DNA of 64,000 bases from Candidatus Altimarinota bacterium (lineage in GTDB: Bacteria; Patescibacteriota; Gracilibacteria; BD1-5; UBA6164): contig JAQUZB010000004.1 of the NCBI GenBank assembly GCA_028691535.1, positions 1 through 64,000 of the forward strand, in the 5' to 3' direction. Shown here piece by piece: positions 43,561-55,707 of the stretch. The notes below the pieces were generated by a model that saw nothing but the letters and a program-made list of their open reading frames with translations, made no database searches and was not told the origin of the DNA. Position 1 is the stretch's first letter, and each line of letters starts with the position of its first letter. The position numbers were made by a program, and so were the translations under genes.

Positions 43561-44451
43561 ATGGACATAAGTATAAATAATTTTTTATGATCATATTATA
43601 TAGTGTGAGAGAACTGACACTGAATATTGAATCCTTTTTTTGTGTGAATTATGTTAGAGTTTATATTGTTATTAGTAGTATACTTTTTTGTTACTAAAAA
43701 ACCTAACTCTAGTTTTTCTGTGTTTTTTGATATGGTTTTTGAATGAGTATATTGATTCTTTGAAGATATATTGTGAATTGATGAGAAAAAATGGACTAAA
43801 TTATATATAACTTCTATGTTTTTTGTTATATTATTTTCAAATTTATCTTGAGCTGTATTAGAAGTAATTTGAGTTTGAATTTGAGTTATTGAAAAATGAA
43901 GTAATTTAGCATTATTAGCTCCTGATAAAGTATGAGATTGAATTTTATCTTATTATATTGAAATTCCAACTTCAGATATAAATTTCAATGTAGCTATGGC
44001 AGTTATCTGAGTTATAATTGTTATATATGAACAATTTAAGTTTTTGTGAATTTGAAAGGCTTTATATGAATATTTTCCAGTATTAGGTAAAAACTATATT
44101 CCTTATGAAAGAGGAAATAAAAGTAAATTTATAGATATACCATTATTCTTACTTGTTAAGTTTTTTGATATAGTTATTTCTTTATTTTTAGGAATATTAG
44201 ATATTGTATGACATCTAGCTAAAGTTATATCACTTTCATTCCGTCTTTTTGGTAATATTACATCAGGTGGTATGTTACTTTGAATGCTACTATTGTGACT
44301 TTGAGCAGGAACTAAATTTCTAGTTTGATTTGAATTTCCAGTCGTAGTACCTGTTATACTTCATCTACAATGAATATTAGTTTCACTTATACAAGCACTT
44401 GTATTTCCACTTTTAATAGCAATCTTCATAAAAGTTGCTAAAGTGCATTAA
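43561..44451 (+). CDS. atpB: ATP synthase F0 subunit a
   Basis: A 296-residue membrane protein that forms the half-channels beside the c-ring. Seen: the FVTKKPNSSF loop, LFSNLSGAVL, LFLGILDIVGHLAKVISLSFRLFGNITSGG with the essential Arg (about residue 228), then IPVVVPVILHLQGILVSLIQALVFPLLIAIFI at the end. It opens the atp operon. TGA glycines are frequent in its helices. Length and the SFRLFGN motif are typical for F-type subunit a. Confidence 0.95.
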
Positions 44452-44485: not shown

Positions 44486-47191
44486 ATGGAAAATTTAGTA
44501 AATTTTATTTGAGCATGATTAGCTATTTGAGTTTCTTGAATCTGAGTAGCAATCGGTCAATGAATTTTGTGAAAAAAATCTGCTGAAGTAATGTGAAAAA
44601 ATAAAGAATTATCTTCTTTCTTTCTTACTATTACAATATTAGGTATAGCCTTAGTAGAATCAGCAGCAATTTACGGTCTAATAGTTGCATTCAAAATATT
44701 GTGAACTACTTGAATTTCTATGTGAGCAAGTATTTGAGCATGATTAGCAATTTGATTAGCTTGATTTTGAGCATGAGTATGAGAATGAAAATTAATTGCT
44801 TGAGCAATTTGAGCAATTGATAGAAGTCCACACTTAAAGTCAAAAATAATGACATATATGGTATTATTTGTAGCGTTAGTAGAGTCTGCTGCCATCTATG
44901 GTTTAGTAATATCATTTAAGATATTATGAGATGTTGATTTTACAAGTCAAGCATTTATAGGTATGTGATTGGCTGTATGATTAGCTTGATTATGAGTAAG
45001 TATCTGAGAATGAATATTGGCAGAAAAATCAATGGAAATGATGTCAACACATGAAAAGATGAGTTGATACTTCTTAACTGTAACTATATTAGGTATAGCA
45101 TTGGTAGAATCTGCAGCAATCTATTGATTGATAGTAGCATTCAAAATGTTTTGAACAGAGTGAATAACAATGTGAGCATCAATAGGTGCATGATTAGCAA
45201 TATGATTAGCTTGATTATGAGCATGAGTATGAGAATGAATATTGGTATCAGGAGCAATCTGAGCAATGTGAACAAGTCCACATATGAAATCAAAACTAAT
45301 GACATTTATGGTATTATTCATAGCATTAGTAGAATCAGCAGCGATATATTGATTAGTAATATCATTTAAAATATTATGAGATATAGACTTCACAAGCCAA
45401 GCATTTATAGGTATGTGATTAGCGGTATGATTAGCATGATTATGAGTAAGTATTTGAGAATGAATGCTGGCAGAGAAATCAATGGAAATGATGTCAAGGC
45501 ATGAAAAGATGAGTTGATACTTCTTGACTGTAACAATATTAGGTATAGCGTTAGTAGAATCAGCAGCAATCTATGGATTGATAGTAGCATTTAAAATGTT
45601 TTGAACCATAGACTTAAGTATTTGAGCAAGTATTTGAGCGTGATTAGCGATATGATTAGCTTGATTATGAGCATGAGTATGAGAGTGAAAACTTGTAGCA
45701 TGAGCAATAACTGCTATGTGAAATAATCCACACTTAAAGTCAAAATTAATGACATTTATGGTATTATTCATAGCGTTAGTAGAATCAGCAGCGATATATT
45801 GATTAGTAATATCATTTAAAATATTATGAGATATAGACTTCACAAGCCAAGCATTTATAGGTATGTGATTAGCGGTATGATTAGCATGATTATGAGTAAG
45901 TATTTGAGAATGAATGCTGGCAGAGAAATCAATGGAAATGATGTCAAGGCATGAAAAGATGAGTTGATACTTCTTGACTGTAACAATATTAGGTATAGCG
46001 TTAGTAGAATCAGCAGCAATCTATGGATTGATAGTAGCATTTAAAATGTTTTGAACCATAGACTTAAGTATTTGAGCAAGTATTTGAGCGTGATTAGCGA
46101 TATGATTAGCTTGATTATGAGCATGAGTATGAGAGTGAAAACTTGTAGCATGAGCAATAACTGCTATGTGAAATAATCCACACTTAAAGTCAAAATTAAT
46201 GACATTTATGGTATTATTCATAGCGTTAGTAGAATCAGCAGCGATATATTGATTAGTAATATCATTTAAAATATTATGAGATATAGACTTCACAAGCCAA
46301 GCATTTATAGGTATGTGATTAGCGGTATGATTAGCATGATTATGAGTAAGTATTTGAGAATGAATGCTGGCAGAAAAATCAATGGAAATGATGTCAAGGC
46401 ATAAAAAGATGAGTTGATACTTCTTAACTGTAACTATATTAGGTATAGCGTTAGTAGAATCAGCGGCAATCTATGGTTTAATAGTAGCATTTAAAATGTT
46501 TGGTACAGAATGAATATCAATGTGAGCTTCAATCTGAGCATGATTAGCAATATGATTAGCATGATTCTGAGCTTGATTGGGAGAATGAATATTGGTTAGA
46601 TGATCTTTATGGTCTATGTCTAGAAATCCAAAAAATAAGTCAAAAATTATGACATTTATGGTATTATTCATAGCATTAGTAGAATCAGCGGCAATATATT
46701 GATTAATAGTAGCATTTAAAATAATTTCATGACTTGATTCTAGTATTGATCAAATGATATATATTGGTTCAGGTTTGGCAATATGATTAGCATGATTATG
46801 AGTAAGTATTTGAAATTGAGTTTTAGCTGAGGAATCAATTATAACTATGTGAAGAAATCCTGTAATGACTGGTTTTATGTTAACTGTAACTATATTAGGT
46901 ATAGCCTTAGTAGAATCAGCAGCAATCTATTGACTAGTAATTGCATTTAAGATTTTAACAACTACTACTACAATTGCTTGATTTGCTTCAATCTGAGCAT
47001 GATTAGCAATATGATTAGCATGATTATGAGCTTGATTGTGAGAAGGTATGATAATTAAGGGTTCAATAAATTGAATGAATATTAATCCTGAAGAAAAAGC
47101 TAAAGTATTAGCTTTCATGGTATTATTCGTTGCATTGGTAGAAGTTGTTGCTATATATGGATTATTAATTGCTTTCAAAGTAATAGGATAA
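44486..47191 (+). CDS. atpE: ATP synthase subunit c concatemer: twelve fused c-subunit hairpins
   Basis: One uninterrupted code-25 frame of 901 residues made of twelve tandem c-type hairpins of about 75 residues. Each has a glycine-rich first helix (GAGLAIGLAGLGAGVGEG or GMGLAVGLAGLGVSIGEG) and a second helix with the proton/sodium carboxylate in LVESAAIYGL; the twelfth has LVEVVAIYGL. Two hairpin types alternate, giving a 150-residue period. At the place of the sodium-binding Gln of Na+ ATPases the first hairpin has Gln (GQG), ten have Glu (GEG) and the eleventh Asn (GNG). E-S...Y in helix 2 fits the Na+ ligand set. One chain could form a complete c12 ring. Normal atpE has about 80 residues. 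A 450-bp unit is duplicated almost exactly in the middle. Confidence 0.92.
45326..46371 (+). repeat. 450-bp tandem duplication inside atpE (two hairpins per unit)
   Basis: The 596 bases at 45326-45921 are identical to 45776-46371 at an offset of 450 bp, i.e. two c hairpins. Older hairpin pairs on either side are diverged. The identity indicates recent unequal crossover or gene conversion; assembly error in copy number cannot be excluded. Confidence 0.9.
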
Positions 47192-47220: not shown

Positions 47221-47694
47221 ATGGAAAATTTAAAATTAGAATTGATTCTTGCTGCTATGATCAATTTTTGAATATTGTTTTTTTTCTTTAAACATTTTCT
47301 TTGAGAAAAATTATCAAAAGCTATTGATGAAAGAAGAAAATTTTTAAAAGCATCAGAAGAAGCTGATGATTTAACAAAGAAAAAATTAGAAGAAGCAGAA
47401 ATAAAAGTTGAAAATATATTAAATGATGCTAGATCTAAAGCTTCAGAAATTGAAAAATCAGCTGATGAATTATCTAAACAAAATACTGCTAAACTTCTTG
47501 AAAAAGCAGAAAAAGAAGCTAAATATGTTTTAGAAAGTGCTAAAACTGAGATTGAAAAAGATAGATTAGATATGAATAATTCTATGAAATCAAAGATTTT
47601 AGATTTATCTTTAAAACTAAATTCTAAAGTATTTTGAAAACAAGAATCAAATAAAGAATTCTTTGAAAAAGAATTTGAGGTATTAGCTAAATAA
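47221..47694 (+). CDS. atpF: ATP synthase F0 subunit b
   Basis: A 157-residue protein with one N-terminal membrane helix (LILAAMINFGILFFFFKHFLG) and a long charged helix (EADDLTKKKLEEAEIKVENIL, EKSADELSKQNTAKLLEKAE) that forms the peripheral stalk coiled coil, ending EFEVLAK. Position between atpE and atpH is standard. Normal length. It links subunit a to F1. Confidence 0.92.
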
Positions 47695-47704
47695 TTTTTG
47701 TATT

Positions 47705-48064
47705 ATGAGTAATATACATGTCAATATTGATAATCTAGGCTTAAGTGAATTGAAAAATTTACTTGTAGATATTAGGTTATATAGAGACTTAAAAAAACAA
47801 TTGGGAACTAGATGAGAAATTTTATACAAAAAATTAGAAAACTGAACTAATACTTTGGTTGTTGAGTATTTTCCTGCTATATCTGAAGATTTGGCTTGGG
47901 AAGAATCAAAGAAGATTTTTGATAAAGTTTTTGGGTTAAATGTTAATAGAGAAGAAGTTGTTTTCTCTAAGAAAGAAAATTTAAAATGAGGAATTAAGGT
48001 TTATGTAAATGATAAAATGATAGACCTAAGTTACGATAGAGTTGAAAAAATGGTTAGAAAATAA
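47705..48064 (+). CDS. atpH: ATP synthase subunit delta (short)
   Basis: A 119-residue protein at the usual atpH place. The C-terminus NLKGGIKVYVNDKMIDLSYDRVEKMVRK matches the GG-----GD-VIDGS---RL--L end of delta subunits. The family is about 175-180 residues, so most of the N-terminal six-helix domain that binds alpha is missing or reduced. It starts 10 bp after atpF. Assignment rests on the C-terminal motif and position. Confidence 0.78.
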
Positions 48065-48108: not shown

Positions 48109-49614
48109 ATGTCAAAAGATTTATTAAATAGCATTATAAATGAAATAGAAAATAAGATTGATTCAGTTGAATTAAATCCAACTGTTTGAAATGTAGGTGA
48201 AGTTTTCTATTTATGAGACGGTGTTGCTAAAGTTTCTGGTTTAGGAGAAGTTTCATACAATGAAGTTGTAGATTTTGAATCTGGAGCTAGAGGTATTGCA
48301 TTAAACTTAGAAGAACATTTTGTTTGAATAGTTGTTTTATCATGATTTAACACTATTAAAGAAGGTGAAAAAGTATTTTCAACTGGTAAAATATTAGAAG
48401 TACCTGTTTGAAGAGGATTAATTGGTAGAGTTGTAGATGCTCTATGAAATCCAATGGATGGTTTAGGTGAAATTAAATCAACTGAATTTTATCCAATTGA
48501 AAGAGTTGCTACAGGTGTTATGGCTAGAAAATCAGTTCATGAACCAATGACAACTGGTATTAAAGCTATTGATGCTCTTGTACCAATTGGTAGAGGTCAA
48601 AGAGAATTAATTATTGGTGATAGACAAACTGGTAAAACTCAAATTGCTATCGATGCAATTTTAAATCAAAAAGGTCAATGAGTAACTTGTGTTTATGTTG
48701 CTATTGGTCAAAAAGAATGAAAAATCGCTAGAATTGTTGAAGAACTTAAAAAGAGATGAGCAATGGATTATACTATTGTTGTAGCTGCTTGAGCTTCTGC
48801 TCCTGCTTCTATGCAATATTTATCTCCATATGCAGGTTGTGCTATGGCTGAATATTTTATGTTCAACAAAGAACACTCATTAATTATATATGATGATTTA
48901 TCTAAACAAGCAAATGCTTATAGAGAAATGTCATTACTTTTAAGAAGACCACCAGGTAGAGAAGCTTATCCTTGAGATGTATTTTATACTCACTCAAGAT
49001 TACTTGAAAGATCATCAAAATTAAATGATGAATTAGGTGCTGGTTCTATGACTGCTCTTCCAATTATTGAAACTCAAGCTTGAGATGTTTCTGCTTATAT
49101 TCCTACAAACGTAATTTCTATTACTGATGGACAAATATTCTTAGAATCAAACTTATTTAATGCAGGTCAAAAACCAGCAATCAATGTATGATTATCAGTT
49201 TCAAGAGTTTGAGGTTCTGCTCAAATTAAAGGTATGAAAAAAGTTTCTGGTACTTTAAAATTAGACTTAGCTCAATATAGAGAATTAGCTGCATTTTCAC
49301 AATTTGCTTCAGATTTAGATTCTGAAACAAAAGCTCAATTAGATAGAGGTGCTAGAATGATGGAATTATTAAAACAATGAGTTTACTCTCCAGTTACTGT
49401 TGAAAAACAAATTTGTTCTATATATGCAGGTTGAAAAGGTTACTTAGACTCAATTGATGTTTCTAAAGTTGCTAAATTTGAACAAGATTTATACACAACT
49501 CTAGATCAAGAAAAAACTATTTTAGAATCAATTTCTAAAGAAAAACAAATGAGCGAAGATATAGAAAAAAAATTAGTTGAAGTTATTAAAAAAGTTGTTG
49601 AATTAAATAAATAA
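48109..49614 (+). CDS. atpA: ATP synthase F1 subunit alpha
   Basis: A 501-residue protein of normal size. Seen: [20 protein letters not shown] at the start, GRVVDALGNPMDG, P-loop GDRQTGKT (about residues 170-177), [21 protein letters not shown], the signature [29 protein letters not shown], and [20 protein letters not shown]. Non-catalytic nucleotide-binding subunit. It encodes a mix of GGT and TGA glycines, with the P-loop GDR in GGT. Confidence 0.97.
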
Positions 49615-49638: not shown

Positions 49639-50553
49639 ATGGCAAATGCTAAAGAGATAAAGAGAAAAATAGGTTCCATAAAAAATACTGCAAAAATAAC
49701 TAAAGCAATGGAGTTAATTTCAACTGTAAAGATGAAAAAAGCTCAAGACTTAGCAATTGAAAAAAGAGAGTTTGTCTTAGAAATGTTAAAAATATTTTTA
49801 AGAGTAGAAGACTACTTATCAGACTTTCCACTTTTCTCAGTTAAAAATTCTTGAAAAAAGACTCTTTGAGTAGTTATTACTTCAAATAAATGATTATGTT
49901 GAGGTTATAACGTAAATGTAATGAAAAAAGTTAATTCATATGTTAATGAAACTAATGAAGATTTAGATTTTATTGCTGTATGAAAGAAAGCTTCAAATTT
50001 TATTGTTAGAACTTGAAATAACTTAATTGCAGATTTTAGTGATGACTTTTCAGATAATTTAGAACCTGTTTTTACAAAAGAAATATCTGAGTTTATGAGA
50101 GATCATTTTCTTTCATGAAAATATAATAAGGTAGTTGTTTTTTACAATTTTTATGTAAATACAATTAGACAAATTCCAGTTGCAAAGGTAAGTTTACCTA
50201 TAGATTCAGTTGATATTAAAAACTATTTATTTTCAATCCTAGATTGACATGTTGATTTAGAAAAGGAAATAGAAGAAATGAAAAATGGATACATCTATGA
50301 TGTAGAACCAACAATTGAAACTTATCTTTCTGAAGTACTTCCAATGATATTGGATATGATGTTCTACGATGTTTTACTAAATGCTAAAGCAAGTGAACAT
50401 AGTTCTAGAATGATTGCAATGAAAAATGCAAAAGATAGTGCGAATAAAATAGCTAAAGCTTTAACACTTAAATATAATAAAGCAAGACAAGCTGGTATTA
50501 CTAGTGAAGTTTCTGAAATTACAGCAGGTGTTGAATCTATGAAAGATATATAA
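49639..50553 (+). CDS. atpG: ATP synthase F1 subunit gamma
   Basis: A 304-residue central-stalk protein. Seen: the N-terminal helix [34 protein letters not shown], the domain start VVITSNKGLCGGYNVNV, and the C-terminal helix [27 protein letters not shown]...[20 protein letters not shown]. The two terminal helices form the coiled coil that turns inside alpha3beta3. Normal length and place. Confidence 0.96.
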
Positions 50554-50615
50554 AATTTCTTTACATGTACTTTAAAAGTACTATAATAAATTTATTAAAT
50601 TTTAAATATTTTCTT

Positions 50616-50948
50616 ATGAATAAATTATTTATTGCTTTAAAAATCTTGATTAACATTGTATTGTTTGGTTTTTATTCTTTGGTTTTTGTTATTGCTTGAA
50701 ATTTTGCTTTTGGTTTAATATTATCTATTTTAAATAGAAATGTACCTTGAAGCGAAGATCCAATACATGCAAAAATGGCTGTATTAGTTATATTTTTAAC
50801 ATTATTAATAACATTATTATTTAGAAAAGTATTTTATTTATCTATTTTTCCAAAAATCAATTTTATTGATATAAAAAAAATAAAAAATATTAAATCAGAA
50901 CCAAAAGATGAAGAGTTAGAGATTTATATAAATAAAGAAATAAAATAA
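50616..50948 (+). CDS. Small membrane protein inserted between atpG and atpD
   Basis: A 110-residue protein with two membrane helices (IALKILINIVLFGFYSLVFVI and MAVLVIFLTLLITLLFRKVFY) and an acidic/basic tail (KKIKNIKSEPKDEELEIYINK). It stands within the operon between gamma and beta, where no known atp gene belongs. An accessory role such as AtpI-like ring assembly, possibly for the fused c chain, is a guess based on position and topology; no sequence match is evident. Intergenic gaps of 62 and 81 bp are larger than others in the operon. Confidence 0.6.
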
Positions 50949-51029: not shown

Positions 51030-52430
<1,401 letters not shown>

Positions 52431-52452: not shown

Positions 52453-52884
52453 ATGAAATTAAAAATGTTATCATTTTCATGAAAAAGTTTTGTTTCAGAT
52501 AATGTTATTTCTGTAACTTTGATGACAGCTATTTGAGAAATTACTGTTTTAGATAATCATTCACCTTTGATAACTAGTTTAAAACCATCAACTTTATATT
52601 TTTTATATATTGATGTAAATTGAGTTGAAAAAAGAGATGATTATGCTATTTGAAAATGATTTGTTGAAATAAGTGATAATGCCGTTAAAATTATGGCTGA
52701 TATGCTTGTTGATATAGAAGATTTAGATGTATGAGTTGCTGAAAGAGCTAGAAATAAAGCTATCGAATTAATGGAAAAATATAGAGATAGTACTGATAAA
52801 ATGGATATGGAAAAATATATAGAAGCAGAAGATATGCTTCTAAAATCTATAGCTCAATTAAAACTAAGTGATACACTTAAATAA
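52453..52884 (+). CDS. atpC: ATP synthase F1 subunit epsilon
   Basis: A 143-residue protein with the beta-sandwich start (LSFSGKSFVSDNVISVTLMTAIGEITVLDNHSPLIT, family GE--IL--H-P), GFVEISDNAVKIMADML in strands 8-9, and a charged C-terminal helical pair (ERARNKAIELMEKYRD, KYIEAEDMLLKSIAQLKL). It is last in the operon and followed by a terminator. Regulates rotation in F1. Confidence 0.93.
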
Positions 52885-52971: not shown

Positions 52972-53535
52972 ATGGAAAAATTTTTGTCTCAAATAGTTGA
53001 ATGAAATAAATTTGAATTAATTATCGATAAAAATTTATTTAATAAAGATATAGTATTAAAAGCTGCATATAATTTTTTAGATAGAGGATATTTCTTTTTT
53101 AAATTAGACAAGAGTGAAAACATAACTTTAGTTTTTACAAAAAGAGAAGAAAATTCTGAGAAAGTTGAGAATATAATTTCTGATTTTAGTGATGAATTAT
53201 TATCAGTATATTTAAGAGATAAACTTGAAAGAGAAAATAAAACTATAAGAGAAACTATAGTTTCTCTTGCTATATCAAATAGTATTGATTCAAATAATTT
53301 TGTTGAAATGAATACTAATCTTCAAAATAATCAATGACAAAATCAAATTGATTTTGATAAGGATATTGATGATATTTTAAGAGAAATCGAAAATGACCCT
53401 GAATTAAAAATTGATGAAGATGAAATTGAAAGGATCCTTAAAGAAATAGAGGATGAATCAATTTTAGAAACTAAATCAGAAGTAAAACTAAATATTGATG
53501 GCTTGAAAAAGGCTAAAGAACAATTTAATAAATAG
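52972..53535 (+). CDS. hxsD: His-Xaa-Ser system protein HxsD
   Basis: A 187-residue protein. Residues about 20-100 match the HxsD pattern: KDIVLKAAYNFLDRGYFFFKL, then LLS-YLRDKLERENKTIRETIVSLAIS (HxsD proteins have ...A-Y-F-DR---... and E---IRELIV--A). The C-terminal 85 residues, rich in Glu/Asp/Ile (DIDDILREIENDPELKIDE), are an extension not needed for the family. HxsD occurs only with the radical SAM enzymes HxsB/HxsC and the HxS-repeat peptide HxsA; the latter is 1.7 kb downstream. Its biochemical role is unknown; a peptide-carrier role is often assumed. Confidence 0.78.
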
Positions 53536-53572
53536 TTTCTTTAATATTTTGATAAAATTTAAACTTAAAAAT

Positions 53573-53767
53573 ATGAACAAAAGTTTTGAAGTAGATAAAT
53601 ATTTCTATCCTGTTGATTTAATTTCTATTTGAATAGATGATTTTTCTGAAATTTCAACTATTAGTTTTAGTAATAATCTATTAACTATAGAATGAAATAA
53701 TGAAGATGAAATAAATAACATATTTAATGAATTTATAAATTATATTACTTGATTAATTAATGAATAG
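53573..53767 (+). CDS. Small protein in the Hxs locus, unknown
   Basis: A 64-residue acidic protein: NKSFEVDKYFYPVDLISIGIDD, then a helix EDEINNIFNEFINYITGLI. It lies between hxsD and hxsB, 2 bp before the hxsB start, so it is translated with it. The size and the beta-rich start followed by a helix recall small peptide-recognition (PqqD/RRE-like) proteins, but no signature confirms this. It could also be a split part of an HxsD-like module. Confidence 0.55.
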
Positions 53768-53769
53768 AA

Positions 53770-55251
53770 ATGTTAAACATTGATAATTTAAAAAAAATAG
53801 ATACAAATACTTGATTTTTCAGATTTAAGAAATTTTGAGATGATTATCTAATAACAAATGATATAGCAAGATATTCATTTTTAACTAAAAATGAATTTTC
53901 TGATTTTATCTCAGGTAATATAAAAGAGTGAAAAAAATATACTGAATTATTAGAAAAAAAATTTATAAAGTGAGTGAATTACATAAATGACATGTCTTCT
54001 GCTTTTGCTTTAAAAAATAATTTTTTAGTATATTGACCATCACTTCATATAATAGTTACAACTCTTAGATGTAATCATAAATGCCAATATTGTCATGCGG
54101 CTGTTGCTCCAATGACTGCAAAAAATATGGATATGACAGAAGCTACAGCAAAAAAAGTTGTTGATACTATTTTCTTTACAAGTAATCCAAGTTTAACTAT
54201 TGAATTTCAATGATGAGAATCTCTTGTTAATTGGGATATTGTAAAGTATATAGTTGAATATGCTGAAAGTAGAGCATTACATTTAAAGAAAAATTTAACA
54301 TTTGCACTTGTTTCAAATCTTTCACTTATGGATGATGAAAAATTAGAGTATTTAATTTCTCATAATGTTCAAATATCTACAAGTTTAGATTGAGATGAAG
54401 ATACTCATAATTTTAATAGAACATTTAAAGAATGAAATAGTTTTGAAAAAGTATCATATTGGATTAAAAAAATTAATAAAGAATATGAAAATAAATGAAT
54501 AAAAACTAAAGTTGGAGCACTATTAACAGTTACTAAAAAAACTCTAGATAGATATAAAGAGGTAATTGATACATATGTTTCATTATGATTAGATTGAATA
54601 TTTTTAAGACCATTAAATCCATATTGATTTGCTGCTGCAGATTTAGAAAAATTAGGATATGAACCAAATGAATTTATTGATTTTTATAAAAAATCATTAG
54701 AATATATAATAGAACTGAATAAAAATTGAACAATATTTAAAGAAGCATTATCATCAATATATCTTTCAAAAATGCTTACTGAAAAAGATCCGAATTTCTT
54801 AGATGAAAGAAGTCCGTGTTGAGCGTGTATTTGACAAGTTGCATATAATTATGATTGAAAGATTTACTCTTGTGATGAGTGAAGAATGCTTTGAAGAATG
54901 TGAGATGATAATTTTCTAATGACAGAAGTTACAGAATCAGGTGCAGAGACTTATAAAAATATGATAGAAAGTGAAACTACAAAGATTATGGTTCAAGCAT
55001 CAACTCTAGACTGATTACCATGATATAATGATAGTGTCTATAAACCATATATTTGAGTATGTCCAATTCATAGTTATAAATTGAGTTGAAATATAATTCC
55101 AACTTATGCAAAAGATCATAAGAGAATACTTGATTATGCAGTACTTGATTACTTATTTAATAAGATAAGAGTTGAAGAAGATAGAAAAGTATTTGAAAGA
55201 TGGTTATGAATGGAAAACAATTTAGTTACTAGTCAGTGTGAATCTATTTAA
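53770..55251 (+). CDS. hxsB: Radical SAM/SPASM maturase HxsB
   Basis: A 493-residue enzyme. Radical SAM cluster motif TLRCNHKCQYCHAAV (Cys 101, 105, 108), with the SAM-binding FQGGESLVNWDIV and STSLDGDEDTHN typical of SPASM peptide maturases. Auxiliary-cluster cysteines occur at DERSPCGACIGQ, IYSCDEGRMLG and IGVCPIHSYK. Length and the Y--F---N--LISSG-type N-terminus (residues 1-90) match HxsB. It probably modifies the HxS repeats of the peptide encoded 30 bp downstream. In GGESL both Gly are TGA. Confidence 0.88.
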
Positions 55252-55281
55252 TATATAAAATATATTTATAATAATAAAATT

Positions 55282-55707
55282 ATGAATCAAAACAATAAAA
55301 AGCTTTTTCCAAAATTTAAAAAGAAATTGAAGTGATTTATCACTGATGAAAGTGGTAAAATTAGTAAGAAAGATGCTTTGTGATTAGCTGTTTGAGCTAT
55401 GATTTTAAGTTGAGTTGATGAAGTCTGAGCGGCTATATCAAATTCTTCTAGTCCTGCTGTTTTACCTTATCCAGCTATCTCAGATTATGCTTGAGCTAAT
55501 TATACTAATACAAATAATTTTACTATTATTAACTCAGCAACATGTAATCATTTTAGTTGAATAGTAAATTGACATTATAGCTGAACTTCATCAGTTAATT
55601 TATCTCAATCTCAAATACAATTAAATAGTCATGCAAGTCATGGTAGTCATGGTAGCCATGGTAGCCATGGTAGTCATGGTAGTCATGGTTCAGGTGGGTG
55701 GTGTTAA
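55282..55707 (+). CDS. hxsA: HxsA-type precursor with seven His-Gly/Ala-Ser repeats
   Basis: A 141-residue protein. The N-terminal 110 residues contain a basic start, a hydrophobic stretch at about 31-45 (DALGLAVGAMILSGV), a Ser/Asn-rich region with one Cys, then NLSQSQIQLNS. From residue 117 come HAS and six HGS units, then GGWC at the very end. This is the repeat signature that named the His-Xaa-Ser system; the repeats are the presumed target of HxsB and its partners. Glycines before the core are nearly all TGA, in the core only GGT/GGG. The terminal Cys may be processed or cross-linked. Confidence 0.92.

Follow-up and report, generated by a model that had tools for sequence, protein, structure and literature searches.

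A single gene, atpE, in the genome of Candidatus Altimarinota bacterium (Gracilibacteria) probably specifies, in one polypeptide, the entire rotor ring of a sodium-type F1Fo ATP synthase, a reading to which we assign a probability of about 0.7. The gene is located at 44486–47191 on the + strand of the window, which here means the whole stretch of 64,000 nucleotides that was analyzed (GenBank assembly GCA_028691535.1, contig JAQUZB010000004.1, positions 1 to 64,000). When translated with genetic code table 25, in which TGA is read as glycine, the frame gave 901 residues and a stop, with no internal TAA or TAG, and 121 of its 148 glycine codons were TGA. The protein contains 12 fused hairpins with 24 transmembrane helices, and in this it departs from the single hairpin of about 80 residues that is the usual form of F-type c subunits. 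The PF00137 (ATP-synt_C) profile matched the whole protein with 528 bits (E of 1.9e-162) in 12 stretches, the helix-2 motif E..AIYG was found 12 times with a spacing of 75–77 residues, and the helix-2 carboxylate of the two-helix hairpin, E65, was kept in every copy. The genome of the window (G000; 1.26 Mb in 20 contigs) gave 12 matches to PF00137 at E ≤ 0.001, all of them inside this open reading frame (ORF), and this search found no separate atpE in an assembly that is 94.21% complete and may thus lack up to about 6% of the genome. An earlier note, written by a model from the letters alone, had described one 901-codon frame with 12 hairpins, placed in a normal atp operon with no separate atpE, which standard-code gene callers would miss; the observation was confirmed, and standard-code annotation breaks the gene at the 121 TGA codons. 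The table 25 code is in turn backed by a transfer RNA (tRNA) with anticodon UCA on the contig of the window (G000:C14:117764-117839, L140), together with a single match to the release factor 1 (RF-1) family in the genome. This tRNA was labeled as selenocysteine (SeC) by ARAGORN, and it is probably a glycine tRNA that reads UGA.

In the arrangement we favor, the twelve hairpins would fold in chain order, and hairpin 12 would come to lie beside hairpin 1, closing a c12 ring. The usual topology of c puts inter-hairpin linkers on the outer membrane face, and with this topology the short linkers joining the hairpins would be found there. Such a ring would carry up to 12 ions per turn for three ATP, i.e., 4 ions per ATP, and it would be driven by Na+ or would pump it.

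Chain lengths in relatives and the predicted fold

The analysis covered 60 relatives and 48 genomes of the family of the window, in which the operons were located and 49 stretches were studied, and hairpins were counted per frame with a profile built from those of the window. A match to the subunit a of the window at E ≤ 1e-8 was present in 33 of the 48 genomes of the family. A single frame holds all twelve hairpins in G000 and in five relatives (G007, G015, G033, G068, and G019). The other chains contained 6+6 hairpins in two frames in G001, G002, and G003 (in the latter on two contigs, the ends of which are apparently adjacent), 6 in G069 and G010, 10 in G005 (longest exact repeat, 102 bp), at least 8 in G004, where the chain is cut by the contig end, 4+4 in G022, 4 in G021 and G023, and 2 in sixteen genomes and in the second c gene of G019. 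An extra partial hairpin upstream of a at a contig end of G010 was excluded from the counts, and the cut chain of G004 was excluded from the divisor count and included in the neighbor-rule and pitch counts given below. In G066, a Na-type subunit a was matched and c was not found. The family set thus comprised 36 complete Na-type chains, 17 with 2 hairpins, 4 with 4, 8 with 6, 1 with 10, and 6 with 12. In 35 of these, the number of hairpins (2, 4, 6, or 12) divides 12, with the chain of 10 as the exception, and an odd number was observed in none of 37 multi-hairpin chains. When the analysis was restricted to chains of at least 4 hairpins, 18/19 were on divisors of 12, with p of 8e-4 if even lengths from 4 to 12 are taken as equally likely, or 4e-5 for lengths from 4 to 14.

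The 12-hairpin chains are distributed in genera g1, g3, g4, g11, and g15. On the subunit-a tree, the distinction between 12 and not-12 requires no fewer than 4 changes, each of which may be a gain or a loss, and the tree of F1 subunits, a quick search with many weak forks, also scatters the 12-hairpin genomes. Chains of 12 seem to have originated on more than one occasion. The recurrence of 12 in five genera, along with the fact that the other lengths bar one divide 12, favors one chain as the whole ring. A scan of the class Gracilibacteria (353 genomes, 313 with a match) showed more than four PF00137 matches only inside family f1. In an even sample of the phylum (379 genomes, the share of f1 not being recorded), the only whole-chain match at E ≤ 1e-30 was the genome of the window itself; no family-based search was made for multi-hairpin F-type c in other phyla. 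A tblastn search of plasmids gave no match. The DNA pattern for ALVESAAIY was found in 23 stretches of genome contigs, with titles corresponding to Gracilibacteria (13), Absconditabacterales or SR1 (4), “Patescibacteria group bacterium” (2), and “bacterium” (4), and in no stretch of viral contigs. A two-hairpin c beside a and b was also present in 4 contigs titled Absconditabacterales or SR1, and because of this, two hairpins may be the ancestral state.

The earlier note had proposed that the length of atpE be compared in related genomes, which gave the series described above, and that the structure of the 901-residue chain be predicted. With the six-chain alignment A1, AlphaFold2 folded the protein of the window with a mean predicted local distance difference test (pLDDT) of 89.4 and a predicted template modeling score (pTM) of 0.91, both of them confidence scores, and both ends were mostly confident. 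The c10 of G005, predicted with the same six sequences, reached a pLDDT of 73.0 and a pTM of 0.75, with confidence dropping toward both ends. The difference between the two models fits a ring that would close at twelve, not at ten, and a single chain with hairpins enough for a full ring, i.e., 12, is what the 0.91 model contains. Residues 750–901, corresponding to hairpins 11 and 12, superposed on c1 of Acetobacterium woodii (4bem_J) over 150 residues with Z of 16.2 and a root-mean-square deviation of 2.2, a score nearly matched by V-ATPase c chains (Z of 16.0 and below). Foldseek gave no match at E ≤ 0.001 when the whole 901-residue chain was compared with the PDB.

Ion-site residues and hairpin order

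The ligand residues were numbered as in the c subunits of Ilyobacter and Fusobacterium. On the + strand, hairpin 1 (44501–44704) carries Q32, E65, S66, and Y70. The set E32, E65, S66, and Y70 is present in hairpins 2 (44726–44929), 3 (44951–45154), 4 (45176–45379), 5 (45401–45604), 6 (45626–45829), 7 (45851–46054), 8 (46076–46279), 9 (46301–46504), and 10 (46526–46729). Hairpin 11 (46760–46960) has N32, E65, S66, and Y70, and hairpin 12 (46985–47188) has E32, E65, V66, and Y70. The Na+-type ligands are, therefore, E65 and Y70 in 12/12 hairpins and Q/E32 and S66 in 11/12 each. Position 67 is Ala, and Val in hairpin 12. These sites point to sodium, not protons, and we infer from the residues that Na+ would be the ion.

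In chains of at least 4 hairpins, residue 66 of one hairpin was related to residue 32 of the following one: E32 at hairpin k+1 was found after V/A66 at hairpin k in 0/15 junctions, and after S/T66 in 111/119. The reverse direction was looser in these chains (8/31 vs. 84/103). Within one hairpin, E32 stands beside V/A66 in 31/31 cases and beside S/T66 in 80/123. In Fusobacterium nucleatum, the ligands of one site are reported to come from two adjacent subunits (PMC3692424, consulted in part), and since published sites span two neighbors in this way, the forward rule suggests that hairpins touch each other in chain order. By tying each hairpin to the next in the chain, this rule also favors the single-chain ring. 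Arg was observed at position 32 in some hairpins of the c chains of L045, L046, L048, L050, L055, L056, and L086, and each R32 hairpin comes after a V66 hairpin (8/8); this Arg32 is possibly a tethered cation that silences its site.

The hairpins of the array also alternate between two types. Internal hairpins of the window array are 84% alike when of equal parity and 53% alike when of opposite parity, and in the remaining five 12-hairpin chains the values are 66–88% and 49–55%, respectively, so the types alternate in all six. Hairpins 3–9 of the window have as closest relative another hairpin in their own array, and for hairpins 1, 2, and 10–12 the nearest counterpart is a hairpin of G004 or G005. 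Moreover, the array holds a 599-bp exact direct repeat on the + strand, with copy 1 at 45326–45924 and copy 2 at 45776–46374, an offset of 450 bp; the repeat is taken as a recent duplication or homogenization of the two-hairpin unit. Chain length evidently changes by such two-hairpin units of 450 nt. A two-hairpin ancestor would have grown by tandem duplication of this unit, passing through divisors of 12, and the array would have been partly homogenized after growth. Purifying selection was detected on c12 when G033 was compared with G068 (nonsynonymous divergence, dN, 0.141; synonymous divergence, dS, 0.641; dN/dS about 0.22), and on the arrays of G000 and G005 (dN 0.099, dS 0.739, dN/dS about 0.13).

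Alternatives and points against a single-chain ring

Several observations weigh against a ring closed by one chain. The divisor and neighbor-rule counts are not independent among related genomes: when chains were collapsed to 11 lineages, a grouping of our own, 10/11 divided 12, with p of 0.03 (lengths 4–12) or 0.006 (4–14), and the junctions share descent, so independent events are far fewer than the neighbor-rule counts. The pairing of V66 with E32 within the same hairpin in 31/31 cases indicates that part of the neighbor rule may reflect inherited hairpin types. At the chain ends, a last V66 goes with a first Q32 in 22/22 cases, and a last S/T66 does so in 11/15; because Q32 is usual in the first hairpin anyway, this pairing is weak evidence for closure. 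The cut chain of G004 lacks the alternation of two types (62% and 62%). The ten hairpins of G005 either break the divisor rule or are an assembly collapse, and G019 and G022, with 12+2 and 4+4 hairpins, may have more than one kind of ring. Regarding the fold, the five c12 models span mean pLDDT values of 64.5–89.4, the other four reaching 64.5–84.8, and the prediction was based on 6 sequences, with shallow alignments and one control, the c10. Finally, the count in the window rests on an assembly that contains the 599-bp exact repeat, and could err by one 450-bp unit.

The chain of twelve might be only a part of a larger ring, or might include spare hairpins that stay outside it. This alternative could explain why length varies within a genus (10, 12, and 6+6) and why G019 carries both a 12-hairpin and a 2-hairpin gene; nevertheless, chain lengths cluster on divisors of 12, AlphaFold2 folds the twelve hairpins with mostly confident ends, and we know of no F-type rings of 24. 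We consider this explanation unlikely.

The earlier note had left two options, one chain forming the whole c12 ring or rings assembled after processing. The first is the one favored by the recurrence in five genera, the divisors, the neighbor rule, the uniform linkers, and the AlphaFold2 model, and the second is disfavored. For processing, a membrane or periplasmic protease would cut between hairpins, and the ring would be built from pieces of one or two hairpins. Signal peptidase works on the outer side of the membrane, which is where the linkers would lie if the usual topology holds, and some linkers contain small residues, such as SQAF and MGAS. However, the linkers printed for the window, G007, and G019 vary and display no common motif by eye, the pitch is 75 residues in 91/122 junctions of chains of at least 6 hairpins, and both the alternation of types in the six 12-hairpin chains and the kept 66/32 pairs would be useless if free pieces were mixed; the lack of odd-numbered chains is also against it. 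Since the linkers are short, with a near-constant pitch and a conserved neighbor order, processing is quite improbable.

We give an equally slim chance to a shorter array, e.g., of 8 or 10 hairpins, misassembled into 12 in G000. The exact repeat with copies starting at 45326 and 45776 would allow it, as short reads alone could miscount an array in which the longest exact repeat is 599 bp, and G005, from the same genus, has 10 hairpins. The relatives argue otherwise, because the longest exact repeats in their 12-hairpin arrays are short (54 bp in G007, 53 in G015, 65 in G033, 20 in G019, and 192 in G068), which makes twelve well founded in several genomes; a misassembly would shift the count of G000 by one unit and leave the phenomenon intact. 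Among the candidates that were rejected, an artefact or a wrong genetic code is contradicted by the UCA-anticodon tRNA, the one match to the RF-1 family, the operon synteny of relatives, and purifying selection, and the PF00137 search of the 94.21% complete G000 did not find a second atpE elsewhere in the genome.

The operon, other Fo modules, and known systems

The genes around atpE are all on the + strand and correspond to an F-type operon in the order a, c, b, 119-aa ORF, alpha, gamma, ORF X, beta, and epsilon. Upstream is atpB, encoding subunit a of the Na-type Fo module (43561–44451; PF00119, 1.8e-27), and downstream are atpF for subunit b (47221–47694; PF00430, 1.8e-14), atpA for alpha (48109–49614; PF00006, 8.5e-83), atpG for gamma (49639–50553; PF00231, 5.6e-74), atpD for beta (51030–52430; PF00006, 3e-73), and atpC for epsilon (52453–52884; PF02823, 5.9e-14). 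As alpha, beta, gamma, and epsilon are of the F type, the enzyme is not an A/V-type one. The 119-aa ORF at the delta position (47705–48064) and the 127-aa ORF X between gamma and beta (50565–50948) gave no match in Pfam and NCBIfam; similar ORFs are found at the equal place in relatives for the former, and in many relatives for the latter. Further downstream, at 53495–55707, there is an Hxs (His-Xaa-Ser) peptide-modification locus, with a radical S-adenosylmethionine (SAM) protein HxsB (TIGR03978, 497 bits, above the cut-off) and an ORF resembling HxsD. The locus also includes a peptide of His-Gly-Ser repeats, for which the matches to HxsA were below the cut-off.

In twelve family genomes, a Na-type a-c2 module occurs together with an H-type c1, the latter with the motif AFAEA[VI]AIYA. 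In seven loci (L057, L059, L062, L063, L079, L081, and L082), a Na-type a-c2-b and then an H-type a-c1-b precede one F1 set (in 2/7, the stretch ends before beta or epsilon is complete), and in G009, G017, G034, G061, and G065 the two modules are apart or on another contig. A gamma match at E ≤ 1e-5 was found exactly once in each of 15 genomes, i.e., the 12 with two Fo types, G000, G019, and G022. A single F1 may serve two motors that differ in their ion. In addition, a second multi-hairpin c gene is present upstream of atpB in G001–G003, G019, and G022 (L039:6045-7397, L040:5782-7134, L042:38-1456, L049:6928-9636, and L050:10873-11766). These upstream genes have E32/S66 throughout except at the ends, and the c between a and b has V66 sites, plus R32 in G022. 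Between the two c genes of G001 and G002 (L039 and L040), there is a terminator-like strong hairpin followed by U, with z of about −5. This organization suggests that paired c genes would be alternative rotors. A broader scheme, which we regard as doubtful although conceivable, is that of a modular Gracilibacteria motor, in which rotors would be locked at 12 hairpins (1×12, 2×6, 3×4, or 6×2), and paired c genes would give a full ring (E32/S66) and a reduced ring, with V66 matched by Q32 or by Arg32, maybe a permanent ion substitute. Na- and H-type Fo would compete for one F1, and the choice of rotor gene would let the cell shift its ion-to-ATP ratio or switch to another ion.

The size of the c ring sets the ions-per-ATP ratio, and structural measurement is normally needed to learn it, because the ring is assembled from many copies of one small gene product. 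In the present case, ring size can apparently be read from the gene, and the natural series of 2, 4, 6, and 12 hairpins illustrates how evolution approaches such a chain. A natural single-chain ring would also allow each site to be mutated alone. The finding bears on how host-dependent Gracilibacteria, in which a proton-pumping electron transport chain is reportedly missing (PMC6851277, in the part available), use ATP synthase, given the sodium-type sites. In other Gracilibacteria, F-type subunits have been reported from a metaproteome and given a proton-based reading (PMC11452946), and for Vampirococcus the authors considered c to differ from the Na+ types (PMC8080830); the available parts of these two papers do not mention c chain length. 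Among open-licence PubMed Central papers, searched by title and the opening of the abstract, none was found on fused c in Gracilibacteria or the candidate phyla radiation, a result that leaves absence unproven.

As for known systems, the ligand set of E32 and E65 with S66 and Y70 is like that of F. nucleatum, where the available part of the report describes a two-carboxylate Na+ site (PMC3692424), but that c11 ring is built from 11 separate subunits and has Thr67 where the window has mostly Ala. The c1 of A. woodii and Clostridium aceticum is a natural multi-hairpin F-type c of the Na+ type, and the best PDB fold match (4bem_J); according to the part of the source at hand, it has two hairpins, the second without the carboxylate, and stands beside a single-hairpin c2 (PMC7911925), whereas the window chain keeps E65 in all 12 hairpins and was the sole c gene detected in G000. 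That fused F-type c hairpins can work in one chain is known from the engineered single-chain c10 of Bacillus PS3 F1Fo, which was active (Mitome et al. 2004, as given in the part seen of PMC8809890). This construct is man-made, with Gly-Ser-Ala-Gly linkers and copies of one c, unlike the natural chain of 12 with alternating types described here. The closest likeness in scale is subunit K of Methanopyrus kandleri, one polypeptide deduced to form the whole rotor, with Na+ ligands in every hairpin (Lolkema and Boekema 2003, as cited in PMC2359735, consulted in part). Both are single chains with hairpins enough for an entire rotor, but K has 13 hairpins and belongs to an archaeal A/V-type enzyme, while the chain of the window has 12, lies in a bacterial F-type operon, and comes from a family with lengths of 2, 4, 6, and 12. 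Collectively, the evidence supports a monomeric rotor of the F type that occurs in nature and whose relatives form a series of increasingly long fusions, a natural F-type counterpart of Methanopyrus K and of the engineered c10.
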